A DNA stretch of 64,000 nucleotides from an uncultured Myxococcales bacterium (GTDB lineage Bacteria; Myxococcota_A; UBA9042; DTJE01): positions 20,459 through 84,458 of the forward strand of contig CAINDP010000044.1 in NCBI GenBank assembly GCA_903847405.1, read 5' to 3'. A program made the position numbers and the translations under genes. Below are positions 3,768 through 29,047 of this stretch, in pieces. The stretch's first letter is position 1. Every line of letters starts with the position of its first letter. The notes under the pieces were generated by a model that was not told the DNA's origin, searched no databases, and was given only the letters and a program-made list of their open reading frames with translations.

Positions 3768-6194
3768 TTGGCGCGATCCTGCGTCGACGACAGGGAAGCG
3801 GACGCGCGGCGGGCGGCGACGCGGCCGCGGCGGCTCCCGGGTCATGCATCGACGCACCTGCGGAACCTCCTGCTGACGATCTTCCTGCTGTTCCTGGCCT
3901 GCCTGCTCGCCGGGACCGCTGCGTACTACCGGATCCAGAGCGACCAACTCCTTGACGACCAGCGGGTCGCCCTGGAGGAGGTCGCCGACCTCAAGGTGCG
4001 CCAGATCGAACAATGGATGGCCGAGCGCAGGGCCGACGCGGAGGTTCTGCGGGAGAACGGCGCGATATTGCCGTCGCTGCAGCAACTCGCTTCCGGGGAA
4101 CCGAACCTCCGGGCGCGGGAAGACGTCCAGGCCTGGTTGGCGCCCATGCAGCGCAGTTACGGGTACCTGGGCATCGTGGTGCTGTCCTCCGACAATCGCG
4201 CGCTGGCGTGGGTCCCGGAAGGCGTGCCGATGAACCTGGGACCGGAGGACCTTCAGGACGCCCGGGAAGTCCGCGGGAATCCCGACCTTGTGCGGATCGG
4301 TCTGCACGTGCAGGAACCCGCGGAAAGCGTCGTCATCGACATCGCGATCGCCTTGAGGGCCGGGGGGGGCACGCGACCGGAAGACCCCTTCGTGGCCGTC
4401 TTCCGGATGGACGCCGACAAGGCCCTGATCCATTACGTCCAGGACTGGCCCGCCCAGAGTCCCTCCGCCGAGGCGCTGCTGGTCCAGCAGGACGGGGACG
4501 AGGTGGTGTACCTGACGGGGACCCGGCTGGGCCGGCATCGGCCGCTGGCCCTGAGGGTGCCGATCGGATCGCCGTCCCTGCCCGCGGCGCGGGCCCTGCG
4601 GGGCGATCATGGGGTGTTCGAGGGGATCGACTACCGGGGCGTCGAGGTGTTGTTTGCGACCCGGAAGGTTTCGGGGACCGGATGGGCGCTGGTCGCCAAG
4701 AAGGATTCCCTGGAAGTCCAGGCGCCCCTGCGATTCCGGATGGCCTGGGCCCTGTTCGCGCTGGTCCTGACGTCGCTGGCCGCAGCGCTGGGCCTTCGGC
4801 TGGTCTGGCGCGGGGCCGAGGCGGAACTGGTGCGGGAGCGCCTGGCCACGGCCGCGGATCGGGCCGAACTGTCGAAGCTGTACCAGACCCTCGGCGACGT
4901 GAACGCCGCCGTCATCCGGACGCGGGACCGGAGGGTCCTGCTGGATCGGGTGTGCGAGATCGCGGTGCAGATGGGAGGATTCCGGCTGGCCTGGGTCGGG
5001 TGGCCCGATGCCGAAACGAACCGGATCGTTTCCCTGGCGCGGCACGGGGAGGCGGCCGGATTCCTGGACGATGCCCGCATGTCGAACCTGGATCAACCGG
5101 AGGGACGCGGTCCCACGGGGACGGCCCTCCGGGAAGGTCGGATCGTCGTGTGCGAGGACGTCCAGTCCGACCCGAGGATGCAGCCCTGGCGGGTCCAGAT
5201 GATGGCCTACGGGCTGGGATCGGCGGCGGCCTTCCCGCTGACCGTCCGGGGCGCCGTGGTCGGCGTGTTCTCCCTCTATGCGGTCGAGACCTCGGCATTC
5301 GCGCCCAGGCGCCTGGACCTGCTGGAACGTCTGGCGGCCGACGTGTCGTACGCGCTGGAATTCCTGGAGGAAGCTGACCTGCGTGAGGAAGCCGAGGAGG
5401 CGATCCGGCGGCTGAACGTCGAACTGGAGGAGAGGGTACGCCGGCGAACGGCGCAGGTGGACGCCGTGAATCGCGAACTGGAGTCCTTCGCCTACTCGGT
5501 TTCGCACGACCTCCGCGCGCCGTTGCGGGCCATGGACGGCTTCGCCCAGGCCCTCATCGAGGACTGCAGCGACCAGGTTCCGCCCCAGGGCCAGGTGTAC
5601 CTCCAGCGCATCCAGGCGGCGTCCCAGCGCATGGGACACCTGATCGACGACCTGCTGCGGCTGTCGCGGGTCACCCGGGCCGAGATGCGGAACGAGCGGG
5701 TGGACCTGTCGGCGCTGGTGAACCGGATCGTGGCCGAACTGCGCGCCGTCGAGCCGGATCGGCAGGTCCTGGTGACCGTGCAGCCGGGCCTGGAGGCTGT
5801 CGGGGATGCGAACCTCCTGTGGATCGCCCTGGACAACCTCCTGGGAAACGCCTGGAAGTTCACGCAGAGGCGGCTGGTCGCGCACATCGACGTGGGCGCC
5901 CGGGTGCGCGGCGGCGTGCACGAGTTCTATGTGACCGACGACGGGGAAGGGTTCGATCCCAACCTCGCGGGCCAGTTGTTCGCGCCGTTCCAGCGCCTTC
6001 ACTCGGCCAGCGAGTTCCCCGGGACCGGGATCGGACTGGCCACGGTCCAGCGGGTCGTGGCAAGGCATGGCGGGCACGTGGGGGCCGTGGCGATGCCGGG
6101 GGAAGGGGCGACCTTCTGGTTCACCCTGGGGGAAACTGCAACGGAGGGCGATGCCCATGAAACCGATCCTGCTGGTCGAAGACAGCCAGGATGA
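3768..6194 (+). CDS. Membrane sensor histidine kinase with GAF domain, phytochrome-type transmitter
   Basis: 808 residues. One transmembrane helix at about residues 33-53 is followed by an extracytoplasmic sensor region, a second helix at about 325-347, a GAF domain at about 385-530 and a short coiled coil. Next come HisKA with H580 in YSVSHDLRAP and a HATPase domain (N-box LDNLLGNAWKF, then DDGEGF and GTGIGL). The transmitter resembles those of bacteriophytochromes, though no chromophore Cys was looked for or is obvious. The TTG start is chosen because a GGGGGGAG motif precedes it and no in-frame ATG lies before the first helix. The 3' end overlaps the next gene by 44 bases, so the two are translationally coupled and should form one phosphorelay. 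Confidence 0.88.
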   Translation: MARSCVDDREADARRAATRPRRLPGHASTHLRNLLLTIFLLFLACLLAGTAAYYRIQSDQLLDDQRVALEEVADLKVRQIEQWMAERRADAEVLRENGAILPSLQQLASGEPNLRAREDVQAWLAPMQRSYGYLGIVVLSSDNRALAWVPEGVPMNLGPEDLQDAREVRGNPDLVRIGLHVQEPAESVVIDIAIALRAGGGTRPEDPFVAVFRMDADKALIHYVQDWPAQSPSAEALLVQQDGDEVVYLTGTRLGRHRPLALRVPIGSPSLPAARALRGDHGVFEGIDYRGVEVLFATRKVSGTGWALVAKKDSLEVQAPLRFRMAWALFALVLTSLAAALGLRLVWRGAEAELVRERLATAADRAELSKLYQTLGDVNAAVIRTRDRRVLLDRVCEIAVQMGGFRLAWVGWPDAETNRIVSLARHGEAAGFLDDARMSNLDQPEGRGPTGTALREGRIVVCEDVQSDPRMQPWRVQMMAYGLGSAAAFPLTVRGAVVGVFSLYAVETSAFAPRRLDLLERLAADVSYALEFLEEADLREEAEEAIRRLNVELEERVRRRTAQVDAVNRELESFAYSVSHDLRAPLRAMDGFAQALIEDCSDQVPPQGQVYLQRIQAASQRMGHLIDDLLRLSRVTRAEMRNERVDLSALVNRIVAELRAVEPDRQVLVTVQPGLEAVGDANLLWIALDNLLGNAWKFTQRRLVAHIDVGARVRGGVHEFYVTDDGEGFDPNLAGQLFAPFQRLHSASEFPGTGIGLATVQRVVARHGGHVGAVAMPGEGATFWFTLGETATEGDAHETDPAGRRQPG

Positions 6195-14772: not shown

Positions 14773-15618
14773 CTACTCCCAGGGCACCGTCAGGACCGCT
14801 TCGGACATCCCGGGGGCGTTGGCCCACCGCACGATCCCCTGCCGCGGATGCAGGATCACCTGGGACACCAGGGGCTCGCCCCCCCCGACGTACTCGCCGG
14901 ACAGGGTCACGCGCAGTTCGGCGCAGTCCAGGGTCGCTTCCAGGGGCAGCGGGCACGGGGCGGCGTACGAGATCGCCTGGATGTCCAGCGCCACCTGGAG
15001 ATTCTGCGGCTCCCCGCCGGAGGACGCGACCGTCACCTGCGTGTCGATGTGGTGGGGCGTGCCCATGGGCGCCAGGTCCATCGGGATCACCAGGGGCGTC
15101 GGGAACCACTGCCCCTGGGGCTCCAGGTACAACGGCAGGTGGGTTTCGGATCCCAGCACCGTGATCTTCCACGGCGTTTCGTGATTGAAGTACAGCGCCA
15201 TGGCGTCCTCGGGGATGCCGGCCACCAGCCTGCCGAACAGCAGCCGCGTCCAGGCGCCATTGCCCCCCACGTCGGGCTTCACCTGTCCTTCCTTCAGGCT
15301 GGCCGGGACGTCCGCTTCCGCCTGGTCCAGCGAGAACTTGACGTGGTAGGTGGCCGTGACGCCCGTCATGGCGGTCCAGATCCCGTCCCACGTCACGCCC
15401 GCCCAGTAGGGATGGGGATGGCCCGGGGCGTTCACGTCGATGGCCGGTCCCGGGTCCGGAGCCCCCGGGTCGTCGGTCGCGGCGGGATCGGTCGGGACGT
15501 CGGGCGTGACGGCGATTTCGGCACCCGGGTCCGCGCCCGCGGTGGTGCCGGACGCGCACGACGTCGCAGCGACCAGGCAGAGCAGGGCCATGCACCAACG
15601 GGACTGGACATGCGTCAT
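14773..15618 (-). CDS. Hypothetical lipoprotein with Asp-Pro-rich linker
   Basis: 281 residues. The signal peptide ends in the lipobox VAATSC, followed by a low-complexity linker (TPDVPTDPAATDDPGAPDPG). The remaining ~220 residues are rich in predicted beta strands (VTATYHVKFSLD, HIDTQVTVASSG) with no family I recognise; two Cys (PCPLPLEATLDC) could form a disulphide. The start is the Met just before the signal peptide; the longer ORF adds an improbable Arg/Pro-rich stretch. It is convergent with the alpha-galactosidase gene (3-base gap) and 68 bases downstream of hppD, with a TAGACT -10-like sequence between. Confidence 0.7.
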   Translation of the reverse strand: MTHVQSRWCMALLCLVAATSCASGTTAGADPGAEIAVTPDVPTDPAATDDPGAPDPGPAIDVNAPGHPHPYWAGVTWDGIWTAMTGVTATYHVKFSLDQAEADVPASLKEGQVKPDVGGNGAWTRLLFGRLVAGIPEDAMALYFNHETPWKITVLGSETHLPLYLEPQGQWFPTPLVIPMDLAPMGTPHHIDTQVTVASSGGEPQNLQVALDIQAISYAAPCPLPLEATLDCAELRVTLSGEYVGGGEPLVSQVILHPRQGIVRWANAPGMSEAVLTVPWE

Positions 15619-15686
15619 CGGGGTCTCCCGGGTCGAGTCGAGGGGGAGTCTACTCCAGGGCGGCGAAAGGGGGGATGGGGGAATTG

Positions 15687-16772
15687 CTACAGGTTCCCGC
15701 GGCGCGCCTGCTCCACCTCGATCGCCTCGAAGAGGGTCTTGAACGAGGTTCCGCCGAAGGTTTCGGCGCCCCGGCGCTCGATCAGTTCCAGGAACAGCGT
15801 CGGGCGGTCGGTCACCGGCCGGGTCCACGCCTGCAGCAGGCAGCCCTTGTCGTCGTGATCCACCAGGATGTTCAGGCGCTCCAGGGTGTCACGGTCCAGG
15901 TGGCATTGGCCGGCCAGTGCGCTGATCCGGTCGTAGTAGCCCTCGGGCACCGGAAGGAATTCCAGGCCGTTTTCCTTCATGGCCGTCGCGGTCTTCACGA
16001 TGTCCCCGGTCGTCAGGGCCAGGTGCTGCACGCCCGCCGTCATGTGGTAGTCCAGGAACTCCTGGACCTGGCTGCGCCGGCTGGCGACGGCAGGCTCGTT
16101 GATCGCGATGCGGATGCGCTGGTCCGGGCTGGTCACGATCTGGCTGTGCAGCGCGGTCCGGTCCGTCTGGACGTCCTTGCCCTCCCAGGTTTCCTGCGTG
16201 TGGAATCCCAGGATGTTTTCGTAGTACTCGACCCAGCGATCCAGTTGCCGGCCCTCGACGTTCACCGTGAAGTGGTCCAGGCCGGTCAGGCCCGAATCGT
16301 AGCCCGGGCGCTTGCGGGATTCGAAGCCGGGCAGGAACGGGCCGTCGTAGCCGCCGCGCGCCACGAAGGAGTGGACCGTGTCGCCGAAGGCCTTGATGGA
16401 CGCGATGCGGACGGTGCCGTGGCTGTCCGACACGGCGCAGGGGCGCTGGACGAAGGTCGCGCCGCGCTTCTCCAGGACCTCGCAGACGCCGTCCAGATCC
16501 TCGACCTCGAAGGCCACATCCTTGACCGAATCGCCGTGCAGCGCCAAAAAGATGACGCGGGGGTCCTCGTGGGTCAAAGGCGACGTGATGACCAGGCGCA
16601 GGTCGCCCCGGGCCAGCGCATACGACGCGGATCCGGGGTTGCCCGTTTCGGGTCCCCGGTAGGCCACGAGGTCCAGGCCCAGGGCCTTCCGGCAGAAGAA
16701 GGACACCAGGCGGGCATTGCCCACGATCAGTTCCACATGGTGCACGCGTCGAATCGGGATGGGATGGGTCAT
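15687..16772 (-). CDS. hppD: 4-hydroxyphenylpyruvate dioxygenase
   Basis: 361 residues, the usual length. Two vicinal-oxygen-chelate halves are visible. The iron ligands are expected to be the His in GLDHFTVNV, the His in GVQHLALTT and the Glu in FLELIERRG. The C-terminus FGGTSFKTLFEAIEVEQARRG is the typical end that closes the active site. The enzyme converts 4-hydroxyphenylpyruvate to homogentisate in tyrosine breakdown. No homogentisate dioxygenase is nearby, but IorAB at 27-30 kb handles related arylpyruvates. The ribosome site GGAGG sits in an inverted repeat, see separate entry. The preceding gene on this strand is the cyclophilin, 72 bases away. Confidence 0.93.
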   Translation of the reverse strand: MTHPIPIRRVHHVELIVGNARLVSFFCRKALGLDLVAYRGPETGNPGSASYALARGDLRLVITSPLTHEDPRVIFLALHGDSVKDVAFEVEDLDGVCEVLEKRGATFVQRPCAVSDSHGTVRIASIKAFGDTVHSFVARGGYDGPFLPGFESRKRPGYDSGLTGLDHFTVNVEGRQLDRWVEYYENILGFHTQETWEGKDVQTDRTALHSQIVTSPDQRIRIAINEPAVASRRSQVQEFLDYHMTAGVQHLALTTGDIVKTATAMKENGLEFLPVPEGYYDRISALAGQCHLDRDTLERLNILVDHDDKGCLLQAWTRPVTDRPTLFLELIERRGAETFGGTSFKTLFEAIEVEQARRGNL

Positions 16773-19465: not shown

Positions 19466-19544
19466 TCCCCGGGCGCGGAGGCGCAGGCGATGGGTTTCCG
19501 AAGGAAACTCTCGCCGGAGACGAAGCCGACTCGGGGCGATTCAA
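19466..19544 (+). repeat. Hairpin element, class 1, copy 1
   Basis: Outer arms CCCGGG (19468-) and CTCGGG (-19535) pair with one G-U wobble. The inner stem is GGCGA/TCGCC and the apical stem GTTTCC-GAA-GGAAAC. The element follows the stop codon of the repeat lipoprotein gene; that TGA is the element's own conserved flank. It lies before the S46 promoter. It could serve as a 3' hairpin for the former gene. Confidence 0.85.
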
Positions 19545-20047
19545 TGGGACCCGGGCGCGGGGCCGTCAGGGAGGGTGTCGGCAGGTTCGTCGAGGTCGGC
19601 AGGCAGGTCTGGTACGGCCGCTTCGTCCAGCGGCACGTCGGGCAGCGACCCCATGTCGGTGCCGCCGATGCCGCCGAGGTCGGGGTACGTGAAAGGCGCG
19701 TCCAGCGGCACGTCGGGCGCTTCACCGACGTCGCGGCCGGCCAGGTCACCCGGGCCCATCGGTACGTCCGGGAGCACGCCTACGTCGGCGCCGCCGATCT
19801 CCGGGTAGGTCCAGGGCGCGTCCATCGGGACGTCCGGGGACTGCCCGTAGTCCGAGCCTGCGAGCTGCGCGATGTCCCTTGCCGCCGTCGCGTCGCACCC
19901 CGTGATGCCGCCGGCCAGCGCCACGACGGCGCCGCCCGCGACCACGGCACGGCGTCCCGACCACAGGGCCAGATCCAGCAGCGACGGGTAGGCCGGCGCG
20001 ACGGGTGCCGGGCGTGACGGATCGGGCGGGTTCGACGAACGCTTCAT
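19541..20047 (-). CDS. Small lipoprotein of two tandem DVP/TYP repeats, candidate substrate of the adjacent radical SAM enzyme
   Basis: 168 residues. A long N-region with SGRR is followed by a hydrophobic stretch and the lipobox ITGC (C51), so it is a predicted lipoprotein, perhaps TAT-routed. Residues 62-97 and 102-140 form two near-identical units of the form LAG.D.G..PDVP.DAP(W/F)TYP..GG...D.G.LPDVP. The tail is Pro/Asp-rich and there is no folded domain. The start follows GGGAGAAAG, and a good promoter (TTGCAT-18-TACGAT) sits in front, so it can be expressed apart from the maturase. The radical SAM gene ends 65 bases upstream. I infer a ribosomally made, post-translationally modified substrate. 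The alternative is a plain surface lipoprotein, because DVP linkers occur in several other lipoproteins here. Confidence 0.7.
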   Translation of the reverse strand: MKRSSNPPDPSRPAPVAPAYPSLLDLALWSGRRAVVAGGAVVALAGGITGCDATAARDIAQLAGSDYGQSPDVPMDAPWTYPEIGGADVGVLPDVPMGPGDLAGRDVGEAPDVPLDAPFTYPDLGGIGGTDMGSLPDVPLDEAAVPDLPADLDEPADTLPDGPAPGSH

Positions 20048-20112: not shown

Positions 20113-21297
20113 TCAGGAGGTCACAAGATTTGCCGGTCCCTCCCCCGCCCGGTCGGTTTCGTCGAACAGCCCGTCCGGGTCCAGCCCGCGGCAGGCCAGC
20201 GCGGACAGCGCGTCGGGGCTGCCGTAGAAGCGGCGCCGGAAGGTCGCGTTGCCCTCGGCGAACAGCGGTTCCGCCAGTCGGTCCGCCGCGGCGATCAGGA
20301 CCTCCTCCAGGCGGCACAACCCTTCCGGGAAGGCGTCGATCCGTCCTGTCAGCGCCCAGCGGATGCAGGACCCGCCGAACGAACAACGGTGGGCGATCGC
20401 GCAGGTCCGGCACCGCACCGGGGTGCCGTCGTGGCATCCCAGAAAGCGTGCCCGGGCCGCGGAATCGAAGCCGGTGTCGATGTGCCCGATGACGCAGCCG
20501 GTGCCGTCGTCCGCGCCCACCATGCGATCGCACGGATACATCCTTCCCGACGGCGCCACGACGAACTGCCCGCGGCCGCAGGCGCAACGCGTGATGCGGA
20601 CCAGGCGATGCAGGACGTGCCGGGCGATTTTGGCGTCCAGGATCGGAACGCTGACGGGCCGCCCCGCCCGGTACGTGTCGGCGACCGCGTCGGCCACCTC
20701 GCCCAGGGAAATCGCCAGGGCCGCGACCGCCGCATCGTCCCAGGCCGCGTTGTAGTCCAGGGCCAGGTGATGCCGGCGCACCCCCAGCGACGTGACGTGG
20801 TCGAAGCAGGCGCGCACCCGGGCTGCCTGCGACGGCCCCACGACCGTGATGACCGGCAGGTCCGGCATGCGGGGCAGCAGGGCGCGCAGGTTCGCGACGA
20901 CGACCGCGTGGGATCCGGAACCGCCGGCGAACGGGCGGGCGCGATCGTGCACGTCCGCCGGGCCGTCCAGGCTGATCGCCACGCGAAACCGCCGTCCGAC
21001 CACGAAGTCCGCCCGCATCCCCGACAGCAGCGTCCCGTTCGTGGTCATGCGGTACCGCACCGGCCGACCCGTATCCCGGGACGCCGCATCGCACCGCTCC
21101 ACGGCGGCGACGATGGAATCGAACGCCAGCAGCGGTTCGCCCCCGAAGAACGCGATGTCCACGGGCCCCGCGCCTTCCCGGAAGGCCAGGTCCACCGCGC
21201 GCTCCATCACGTCCTGCGGCATCGCGCGGGCGAACGGGGCGCCGTTGTAGCAGTAGGTGCAGTGGAGGTTGCAGGCGTGCGTGAGGAAGAGTTCCAC
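20113..21297 (-). CDS. Radical SAM/SPASM-like peptide maturase
   Basis: 394 residues. CNLHCTYC near the N-terminus is the CxxxCxxC motif that holds the [4Fe-4S] cluster and binds S-adenosylmethionine. FFGGEPLL and the TTNG/ISLDGP segments complete the radical SAM core. The C-terminal part has CACGRG, YPCDRM, RCRTCAIAHRC and CIRW, the cysteine layout of a SPASM or twitch domain with auxiliary clusters. It resembles the anSME/PqqE/sactionine-type group that alters peptides or proteins at Cbeta or Calpha. The GTG start lacks a Shine-Dalgarno; TACAAT lies 6 bases before it, see leaderless finding. It follows the ABC exporter genes and precedes a repetitive lipoprotein, its likely substrate. Confidence 0.88.
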   Translation of the reverse strand: MELFLTHACNLHCTYCYNGAPFARAMPQDVMERAVDLAFREGAGPVDIAFFGGEPLLAFDSIVAAVERCDAASRDTGRPVRYRMTTNGTLLSGMRADFVVGRRFRVAISLDGPADVHDRARPFAGGSGSHAVVVANLRALLPRMPDLPVITVVGPSQAARVRACFDHVTSLGVRRHHLALDYNAAWDDAAVAALAISLGEVADAVADTYRAGRPVSVPILDAKIARHVLHRLVRITRCACGRGQFVVAPSGRMYPCDRMVGADDGTGCVIGHIDTGFDSAARARFLGCHDGTPVRCRTCAIAHRCSFGGSCIRWALTGRIDAFPEGLCRLEEVLIAAADRLAEPLFAEGNATFRRRFYGSPDALSALACRGLDPDGLFDETDRAGEGPANLVTS

Positions 21298-23554: not shown

Positions 23555-25471
23555 ATGCGTCGCCTGACGGTCCTCGCGTTCGCCTCGATGGCCTGGCTGG
23601 CCTGCGGTTCGTCCAGCGGGGGCAGCGACACGTCGTCCCAGGACGTGCCCTTGAACCCCGACATCCCGATCGCCGACATCACCTACGACCAGCCCGGCGA
23701 CGACGTGCCGCCCGCGGACGACGTCGTCGTGGATCCGGACGCGGTGGCGTCCACCCGGCGCATCGAGTTCCTGGTCGACACGTCGCTGCCGATCCAGATC
23801 GGCGCGAAGCAGCCCTACACGATCCGCGGCAAGGTCGTGGATGCGACCACGGGCGAGGGCGTCCCCAACGTCTCGGTCGCGTTCAAGATCGTGAAGTGCA
23901 CCGAGGGCCTGGGCGGCGCCGAACTGCTGGACTACGACAGCGCGATGACCACCGCGGCCTCCATCACCGAGCCGAACGGTCGCGTGGACGGCGTCTTCCT
24001 GGCGGGCGAGTCCGTCGGCCTGGTCTACACGGTGGAACTGACCGCGAAGGACATCCCGGCGGCGCGGGTGGACCTGATGGTCGCGAACATGGACTGCGCG
24101 AAGGTGAAGGTCGCGATGACCTACGCGGGCAACCTGTCCCCGGCCGCGTCCTACCTCATCACCGTCCTGCCCCCCGAACACAAGTGCGCCGACCTGACGG
24201 CCGGCGACCTGCCGAACCCGGTTGCCGAGGCCGCGGGCAGCGATTTCGTGGTCGGCGGCGAGGTGCCGTGCGTGCAGCCGAACGCGACGTTCACCGTGGT
24301 CGTGACCGCCAAGGAAGCCTGCCCATTCGCGTTCGGTTGCGTCGAGAACGTGGCGACCCCGGCGAAGGACGGCACCGTCGAGACGGCCGTGGACCTGGCG
24401 GGCGTGGACGTGTCGCTGGACGGCGCCTACACCGGGACGCACAACTTCAAGCTGACCGACGCGTTCCCGGACTGCACGGGGCTGACGACGGCCGGGGAGT
24501 GCGCGGCGCCCGCCGGCCTGTCCTTCGGGAAAGTCGCCTGCTGCTACCTCGGGGCGATCGAGGGCTTCTTCCAGACCGATGCCGCCGGGTTCGCGACCGC
24601 GATGAAGGGCGGCGCGGCCTCGTGGAGCGGCGGGAAGATCCCGGCGGGCCGGGAATCGGATTTCAACCAGGCCGTGGATTCCGCGATGGCCACGTTCCTG
24701 GCCGCCAACACGCCGGCCTGGGTCGCCCAGTACGCGGCCGTCAGCAAGGGCGCACTGCCCGCCGTCCGGCAGGTCAACCTGACCTCGACCCTGACGCTGC
24801 AGGCCGCCACCCCGGAGGGCGACTACCCGGCCACCGAGGCGTGGACCGCGTACACCCTGTACTGGAAGGTGGGCTGCGACCCCGCGGACCCGCTGTACTA
24901 CCAGTGCGGCAAGGCGACGTACGCGATGGGGTCCTTCGGCGGCGTCGGCTACACGCCCGTGATTTCCCCGTCCACCCTCACGGTCGCGCGCGGCGCGGGG
25001 AACCTGTTCAACGTCGGCGAGCACACGATCGCCATGAACCCGGGACGGTTGCTGGCGTTCATCGTCAACGATCTGGCCGCGAACGCCCTGACCGGCGGGA
25101 AGATCCGCGACGGCATCTTCAAGGACGGCGCAGCCAAGAACGTGCTGGAGGCCGCGGACCTCTGGATCGCCTGCCCGACGATCGCGGCGTCCCTGTTCGG
25201 CAGCATCTCGACGTGGTTCACCGGTACCCAGGCGGACCTGCAGACGCTGTGCGCAACGTCGGTGGACGGCCTGCTGGCGCCCGTGACGGTCCTGCAGACG
25301 GCCGTGACGCAGACGTCGTCGCTGAAGGTCACGGGCAGCGGTTCGTGGACCGACACGAATTGCGACCTCAAGACCGATCGCTTCCAGTCGGGCGCTTACG
25401 CGGGAACGTTCCAGCCTGCGTCGGGCGACCCCGTGGCGATCACGGGCAGCCTGTCGGCGACCCGGAACTGA
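23555..25471 (+). CDS. Large lipoprotein with Ig-like domain
   Basis: 638 residues. The signal peptide ends in the lipobox AWLAC, followed by a Ser/Gly and Asp-Pro linker (DVPLNPDIPIADITYDQPGDDVPP). A beta-rich domain at about 70-170 (YTIRGKVVDATTGEGVPNVSVAFKI ... TEPNGRVDGVFLAG) looks like a bacterial Ig-like (Big_1) or carboxypeptidase-regulatory fold. The rest has about ten paired Cys and no family I recognise. It is probably exposed at the outer membrane. The ATG follows CCCGGAGGTCCCC. It has its own promoter, is divergent from the exporter/radical SAM cluster, and converges on the DUF4019 gene. Confidence 0.8.
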   Translation: MRRLTVLAFASMAWLACGSSSGGSDTSSQDVPLNPDIPIADITYDQPGDDVPPADDVVVDPDAVASTRRIEFLVDTSLPIQIGAKQPYTIRGKVVDATTGEGVPNVSVAFKIVKCTEGLGGAELLDYDSAMTTAASITEPNGRVDGVFLAGESVGLVYTVELTAKDIPAARVDLMVANMDCAKVKVAMTYAGNLSPAASYLITVLPPEHKCADLTAGDLPNPVAEAAGSDFVVGGEVPCVQPNATFTVVVTAKEACPFAFGCVENVATPAKDGTVETAVDLAGVDVSLDGAYTGTHNFKLTDAFPDCTGLTTAGECAAPAGLSFGKVACCYLGAIEGFFQTDAAGFATAMKGGAASWSGGKIPAGRESDFNQAVDSAMATFLAANTPAWVAQYAAVSKGALPAVRQVNLTSTLTLQAATPEGDYPATEAWTAYTLYWKVGCDPADPLYYQCGKATYAMGSFGGVGYTPVISPSTLTVARGAGNLFNVGEHTIAMNPGRLLAFIVNDLAANALTGGKIRDGIFKDGAAKNVLEAADLWIACPTIAASLFGSISTWFTGTQADLQTLCATSVDGLLAPVTVLQTAVTQTSSLKVTGSGSWTDTNCDLKTDRFQSGAYAGTFQPASGDPVAITGSLSATRN

Positions 25472-28868: not shown

Positions 28869-28877
28869 CAGCCGCCC
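28859..28877 (+). terminator. Strong hairpin over the iorA stop codon
   Basis: GGGCGGC, TGACA, GCCGCCC: seven GC pairs with the TGA in the loop. No T-tract follows, so it is at best an attenuator or mRNA 3'-end stabiliser rather than a classical terminator. Confidence 0.35.
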
Positions 28878-28959
28878 GCCCGAGCACGGAGGCGGAGGCA
28901 TCGGGATTGCGCATGCAATCTCATGCCGCAGCCGGAGTCGACTCGGGCGCTCTGAATGG
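28873..28959 (+). repeat. Hairpin element, class 2, tandem copy a
   Basis: Outer arms CCCGAG (28879) and CTCGGG (to 28947). Inner stem GGCAT/ATGCC, apical stem GATTGC-GCAT-GCAATC. It has the same layout as the class 1 elements but a different stem sequence. It is 85 of 87 identical to copy b. Confidence 0.85.
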
Positions 28960-28960
28960 T

Positions 28961-29047
28961 CGCCCGCCCGAGCACGGAGGCGGAGGCATTGGGATTGCGC
29001 ATGCAATCTCATGCCGCAGCCGGAGTCGACTCGGGCGCTCTTAATGG
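28961..29047 (+). repeat. Hairpin element, class 2, tandem copy b
   Basis: Second copy at an 88-base period. It differs from copy a by two substitutions. Its 3' edge (AATGG) runs into the GGAGG ribosome site of iorB, so the structured element ends right at the initiation region. Confidence 0.85.

Follow-up and report, generated by a model that had tools for sequence, protein, structure and literature searches.

A small repeat lipoprotein encoded beside a predicted radical-SAM/SPASM enzyme in an uncultured Myxococcales bacterium: a probable multi-site peptide substrate

The repeat lipoprotein gene and its radical-SAM neighbor

The window analyzed here, a stretch of 64,000 nucleotides from a single contig, contains a short gene for a predicted lipoprotein with a repetitive tail. 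Its nearest upstream neighbor, separated by 65 bp and on the same strand, encodes a predicted radical-SAM/SPASM enzyme, a type that typically remodels peptides through radical chemistry (Table 1). DrrAB-like ABC transporter genes lie directly upstream, and an S46 peptidase gene is also among the neighbors.

Table 1 Features of the repeat lipoprotein gene and the adjacent enzyme gene in the window
Feature	Position	Strand	Remarks
Repeat lipoprotein ORF, proposed radical-SAM substrate	19541..20047	-	168 aa, ATG start
N-terminal leader MKRSSNPPDPSRPAPVAPAYPSLLDLALWSGR, residues 1-32	19952..20047	-	conserved YP[ST]LL[DE]L in the family alignment; YP leader also in distant loci
Predicted signal-peptide hydrophobic stretch and lipobox I-T-G-C51, residues 33-51	19895..19951	-	read by eye from the sequence
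Unit 1 LAGSDYGQSPDVPM, residues 62-75	19823..19864	-
Unit 2 IGGADVGVLPDVPM, residues 84-97	19757..19798	-
Unit 3 LAGRDVGEAPDVPL, residues 102-115	19703..19744	-
Unit 4 IGGTDMGSLPDVPL, residues 127-140	19628..19669	-
Predicted radical-SAM/SPASM peptide maturase	20113..21297	-	GTG start, 394 aa, CX3CX2C at residues 9-16

The repeat lipoprotein matched no family in Pfam or NCBIfam. A twin arginine (R32-R33) opens its signal-peptide stretch, and the Gly and Cys of the lipobox are invariant in an alignment with six relatives. Read by eye, ITGC51 supplies the predicted lipoprotein signal with a lipobox Cys by which RiPP-lipoprotein hybrids are recognized. Cys51 is the sole cysteine of the protein, with none following it, and the precursor cores of relatives in the family likewise lack Cys. 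The tail adopts no fold in the predicted structure, which fits the expectation for a peptide substrate.

Within this protein, the initial annotation had singled out positions 19557-19864, corresponding to residues 62-164, and aligned residues 62-97 with 102-140 as near-identical repeats. The two segments can indeed be aligned: when the tail is matched to itself without gaps, the best 22-residue stretch has 15 identities, whereas 1,500 shuffles gave at most 11. The term "near-identical" is nevertheless too strong for an identity of 24/36 residues (67%) and 70% at the DNA level. Each long repeat consists of two shorter units, giving the gene four copies of [LI][AG]G-x-D-[YVM]-G-x-x-PDVP. The PDVP positions (residues 71, 93, 111 and 136) thus disclose a nested four-unit structure that the annotation had left unstated.

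The level of DNA identity also sets aside the explanation that the annotation had placed against its own reading, namely a very recent duplication leaving identical DNA. The codon-level comparison it had suggested shows an excess of synonymous over non-synonymous change: across 36 aligned codons, 15.3 synonymous differences on 28.5 sites were counted versus 16.7 non-synonymous differences on 79.5 sites, a pN/pS of 0.39 (bootstrap 0.20-0.73, from a small sample). For pairs of single 14-codon units, a ratio of 1 stays within the range of five of the six comparisons. Taken whole, the long repeats show purifying selection, and their copies are old and conserved as protein. Between species (G000, the genome of the window, versus G001), the tail at 0.76 (0.56-1.03) is less constrained than the enzyme at 0.44 (0.36-0.53).

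A DNA-level pattern search for the unit G-x-D-x-G-x-x-P-D-V gave four copies in the lipoprotein gene and five single copies elsewhere in the genome, compared with two for a backward-pattern control; the genome-wide linker statistics come from this search only, and four of the five single copies lie in frames that, by eye, do not resemble real genes. Ordinary lipoproteins encoded elsewhere in the window (14773-15828 and 23555-25471) also have acidic PDVP-like linkers, so part of the tail composition is house style. By far the strongest tandem repeat of the window lies at 28873-29047, where an 88-bp sequence is present in two adjacent copies that match at 97%.

The enzyme carries its cluster motif, CNLHCTYC, at the very start of the protein and scores 33.6 bits with Pfam Radical_SAM, above the cut-off, while Pfam SPASM gives 13 bits against a cut-off of 21.5. 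Seven further cysteines (C238, C256, C296, C299, C305, C311 and C328) are conserved in seven relatives. Structure prediction (pLDDT 81) places its fold nearest to CteB, the SCIFF maturase (5why; Foldseek TM 0.72), and to the anaerobic sulfatase maturase (anSME), with ChlB also high. Since the sequence opens with the cluster motif and aligns with CteB only from residue 100 of the latter, the enzyme lacks an N-terminal recognition domain. Judged by sequence and predicted structure, the enzyme is of the peptide-maturase type.

Its closest NCBIfam model is PapB (NF047865), at 164.1 bits versus a cut-off of 340. Membership of that family was rejected on this score and on the absence of a core Cys with a downstream Asp/Glu. 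This proximity and the Asp-rich tail would be expected of a PapB-like ranthipeptide with Cys to Asp/Glu thioether cross-links in its tail; with Cys51 as the only cysteine and the relatives' cores equally devoid of Cys, PapB-type thioethers in the core are excluded, and we give this reading virtually no credence.

Pairing of enzyme and precursor in the close family

Enzyme orthologues were identified in G001 (71% identity), G012 (52%) and G030 (32%), together with a paralogue in G000 (C156; 51%), and all of them adjoin small acidic lipoprotein-like ORFs. In G001, in G012 and at the paralogue, this ORF is a same-strand neighbor with the same leader; in G030, such ORFs lie on the opposite strand from the enzyme. 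Throughout the family, the leader motif and the lipobox Gly-Cys are common to the precursors. G004 encodes an enzyme (49%) with no neighboring precursor, and a leader profile built without G004 found its precursor on another contig (E 2.7e-8). A leader profile also found a precursor in G010 (E 1.6e-9), an 86% complete assembly in which no enzyme was found. Among the 13 family genomes, four contain both leader and enzyme, one the leader only, none the enzyme only and eight neither (Fisher p 0.007); the presence of the two co-varies. In L031 (3883-5403), the genes for the paralogous enzyme and precursor of the same genome have a second, presumably HxsB-like radical-SAM gene nearby.

The orthologue comparison proposed in the initial annotation showed that the number of units varies, with four here and about three in the sister species G001. 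One G001 unit, GTDVGSLPDVPLD, is nearly identical in the alignment to GTDMGSLPDVPLD of the window protein. Under a strict count, a phi-x-G pattern is not enriched in the family's own tails over shuffled tails, so that a shared core motif there rests on the four-fold unit and the G001 match. Single members also display the motif: L031 has DLPLAGGMPLPEP and a near copy, DLPLAGGLPMPEP, while PLPGEPPI occurs in G004 and FLAGDPPIPDP in G010. The emphasis that had been placed on aromatic residues holds for TYP between the two copies in the window protein but does not extend to relatives, in which the recurring residues are Gly, Pro, an aliphatic residue and, within the window's family, acidic residues.

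These data bear on a reading in which the enzyme acts elsewhere on the lipoprotein and the repeats form a flexible acidic spacer lifting the modified part off the membrane. Such a spacer would account for a tail composition like that of ordinary acidic lipoprotein linkers in the window, for the lack of phi-x-G enrichment in the family, and for the quicker divergence of the tail, relative to the signal region, from one species to another (46% versus 68% identity). It is harder to reconcile with units kept at the protein level within the gene, with the G001 match, and with distant precursors in which a Gly-centered unit is repeated up to about seven times; overall, we regard the spacer reading as unlikely.

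Distribution of precursor-like proteins across phyla

Named genomes were scanned with the enzyme alignment, yielding 80 loci in many phyla. Precursors were counted with a leader pattern consisting of YP, basic residues and then a hydrophobic stretch, followed by a tail in which D, E and P outnumber K and R. In the 79 loci outside the family, 34 such ORFs fell within 168 strand-kb near the enzyme versus 9 in 1,110 strand-kb elsewhere, a density about 25-fold higher beside the enzyme; the strict pattern was passed by only 25 of these 79 distant loci. The 162 strand-kb examined around other radical-SAM genes contained no such ORF, and from the 64-kb window itself the pattern selects the repeat lipoprotein gene and two others. 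When 30 very diverse leaders were combined into one profile, it recovered L033 alone and missed the window protein; the pattern count and the within-family profile were used in its place.

The small exported proteins of the relatives combine a leader of the form MK...P.YP..., a signal peptide, often with a lipobox and often with a twin arginine (e.g., NRRRFLAIL in L039 and DRREFLKLL in L047), and a Pro/Gly-rich tail that often bears repeats of the phi-x-G motif. In 29 short precursors from outside the family, an aliphatic residue stands two positions before Gly in 46% of cases versus 19% after shuffling, with 0 of 2,000 shuffles as high. Among the loci with such ORFs, the Kiritimatiellia precursor of L051 contains RLGGELPAPQP, HIEGDIAIAEP and TIKGAVVAPQP, and the Akkermansia precursors of L046 and L061 contain LGGDVP; Verrucomicrobia (L055) and Riflebacteria (L069) provide further examples beside the enzyme. 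Ten representative precursors matched no specific precursor family in NCBIfam or Pfam, and PDB sequence searches with precursors returned nothing useful.

Several loci depart from this layout. The same enzyme family is accompanied in L039 and L041 (about 3.8-6.0 kb) by a tandem series of several twin-arginine precursors, at least some of them fused to a globular domain that is presumably FliL-like. In L043 of Akkermansia (4939-5986), four small tandem signal-peptide ORFs precede the enzyme, some without the exact YP leader. In L057, L067, L070 and L101, precursor-like proteins beside the enzyme have in common a C-terminal stretch like FIDWLESEGVL; those of L070 and L101 matched no Pfam family above cut-off.

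On the enzyme tree, loci with and without a precursor are more clustered than shuffled labels yet mixed (19 changes versus about 27). About half of the tree has no precursor recognized alongside; precursors were assigned by eye and by pattern, and absence is not proof. The precursor group spans Myxococcota/Deltaproteobacteria, Verrucomicrobiota including Akkermansia, Kiritimatiellota, Lentisphaerota, Planctomycetota and Riflebacteria. One well-supported sub-branch without a recognized precursor (L063, L087, L089, L091, L094, L096, L098, L100, L116 and L117) comprises Chlorobi, archaea, Bacteroidota and others.

That an ordinary lipoprotein with a repetitive linker lies by chance beside an unrelated radical-SAM gene is compatible with the PDVP-type linkers of other window lipoproteins. 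Chance does not explain why the association recurs in many phyla, why leader and enzyme co-vary, with one precursor encoded in trans, or why the leader is conserved ahead of the signal, and we consider this reading very improbable.

Besides repeated enzyme-recognition sites, the initial annotation had suggested a multi-core precursor; under this reading, every unit would be excised to give several small diffusible products. Repeated cores of varying copy number and the upstream transporter genes are in keeping with that idea. Against it, the enzyme-precursor pair has no conserved protease or dedicated exporter next to it, and the lipobox would keep the product at the membrane; we consider excision improbable, if somewhat less so than a chance neighborhood. 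At the corresponding loci of relatives, nothing matches the window's genes for the ABC transporter and the S46 peptidase; being absent beside the enzyme there, these genes were rejected as parts of the system.

Proposed maturation and comparison with known systems

We consider it likely that the repeat lipoprotein is a multi-site substrate of the adjacent enzyme, whose modification would take place in the cytoplasm, before export and processing through the ordinary lipoprotein pathway. The enzyme-substrate relationship is strongly inferred from the peptide-maturase type of the enzyme, the recurring association, the in-trans precursor of G004, the co-variation and the purifying selection on the repeats. 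The genes, their recurrent pairing, the leader, the arrangement of the signal and the repeats are observed, while the action of the enzyme on this particular protein, as well as its site, is inferred from them. Of the alternatives weighed in the initial annotation, a plain linker as against a multi-core precursor or repeated enzyme-recognition sites, the view of the repeats as enzyme sites is probably right, being well supported by the adjacent enzyme, the leader and signal conserved across phyla, and the varying unit number; the release of separate peptides is not supported, with neither a dedicated protease nor an exporter conserved next to the pair.

In the proposed sequence of events, the leader, with its YPSLLDL motif, would recruit the enzyme in the cytoplasm, and the repeated Gly-containing units would be modified one after another. 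The modified peptide would then be exported, possibly by the Tat route as the RR suggests, although other members look Sec-like, and lipidated on Cys51. Cleavage by signal peptidase II would remove leader and signal together, leaving a membrane-anchored, acidic, multiply modified tail, and no dedicated protease or exporter would be required. The steps after modification are modeled on established lipoprotein biology and on DybA, an MNIO-modified peptide shown to be lipidated (PMC12636315). Our likeliest guess for the modification is a site at or near the recurring Gly or the flanking aliphatic residue.

A broader proposal, to which we assign an even chance, is a cross-phylum class of radical-SAM-modified lipoproteins with a leader ahead of the signal, one housekeeping cut that would both free the leader and leave a poly-modified peptide anchored in the envelope, and a new chemistry on Cys-free phi-x-G units. 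In the open literature searched on radical-SAM lipoprotein or Tat RiPPs, including those of Akkermansia, no description was found, and within that scope the pairing of enzyme and small exported protein probably gives rise to a type of enzyme-modified surface peptide not described before.

Among known systems, TIGR04133 (rSAM_w_lipo) denotes, by name, the same general pairing of a radical-SAM enzyme with a lipoprotein, and membership was rejected, as the window enzyme is not among the 24 hits of this model in the genome. The best TIGR04133 score there, 347.6 bits against a 425-bit cut-off, belongs to a different radical-SAM gene (L149, G000:C99:69666-70718). In the Tvg system, a single SPASM enzyme, TvgB, acts repeatedly on the repeating TVGG motif of TvgA to form poly-cyclopropylglycine (PMC9062424). 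The window pair resembles it in combining a putative SPASM enzyme with a repeated Gly-containing motif, on which repeated action is proposed here. It differs in its lipoprotein signal and in lacking TVGG and the accompanying peptidase/oxidase/transporter set; its neighbors are the ABC and S46 peptidase genes rather than the tvgC-E partners, and the pair was not assigned to Tvg.

PapB/PapA, the freyrasin-type ranthipeptide system with PapB-type thioethers (PMC9413430), is the nearest named enzyme family by profile and shares a radical-SAM enzyme, with a putative SPASM domain here, and acidic residues in the substrate. The window enzyme, in contrast, reaches less than half of the family cut-off, and its candidate substrate is an exported lipoprotein with a Cys-free core.

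DAG-RiPPs (DybA/DybH, NedA), reported in 2025, are MNIO-modified RiPP-lipoprotein hybrids (PMC12636315). As in these systems, a peptide with a lipoprotein signal would be modified in the cytoplasm before housekeeping lipidation and signal removal, a parallel proposed here from sequence. In DAG-RiPPs, an MNIO acts on Cys motifs of the cargo; the window instead pairs a predicted radical-SAM/SPASM enzyme with a protein whose repeated units are free of Cys and whose conserved leader precedes the signal. With a radical-SAM neighbor in place of the MNIO modifier, it is not a DAG-RiPP as published. Within the open literature searched, the pair appears to represent a RiPP-lipoprotein group not described before, in which a radical-SAM enzyme would stand where the DAG-RiPPs have an MNIO. 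Its layout is minimal, at two genes, and its precursors are widespread, with no model in Pfam or NCBIfam for the members scanned. If this is true, RiPP-lipoprotein hybrids would come to include radical-SAM enzymes besides MNIO, and new cysteine-free peptide chemistry could result.
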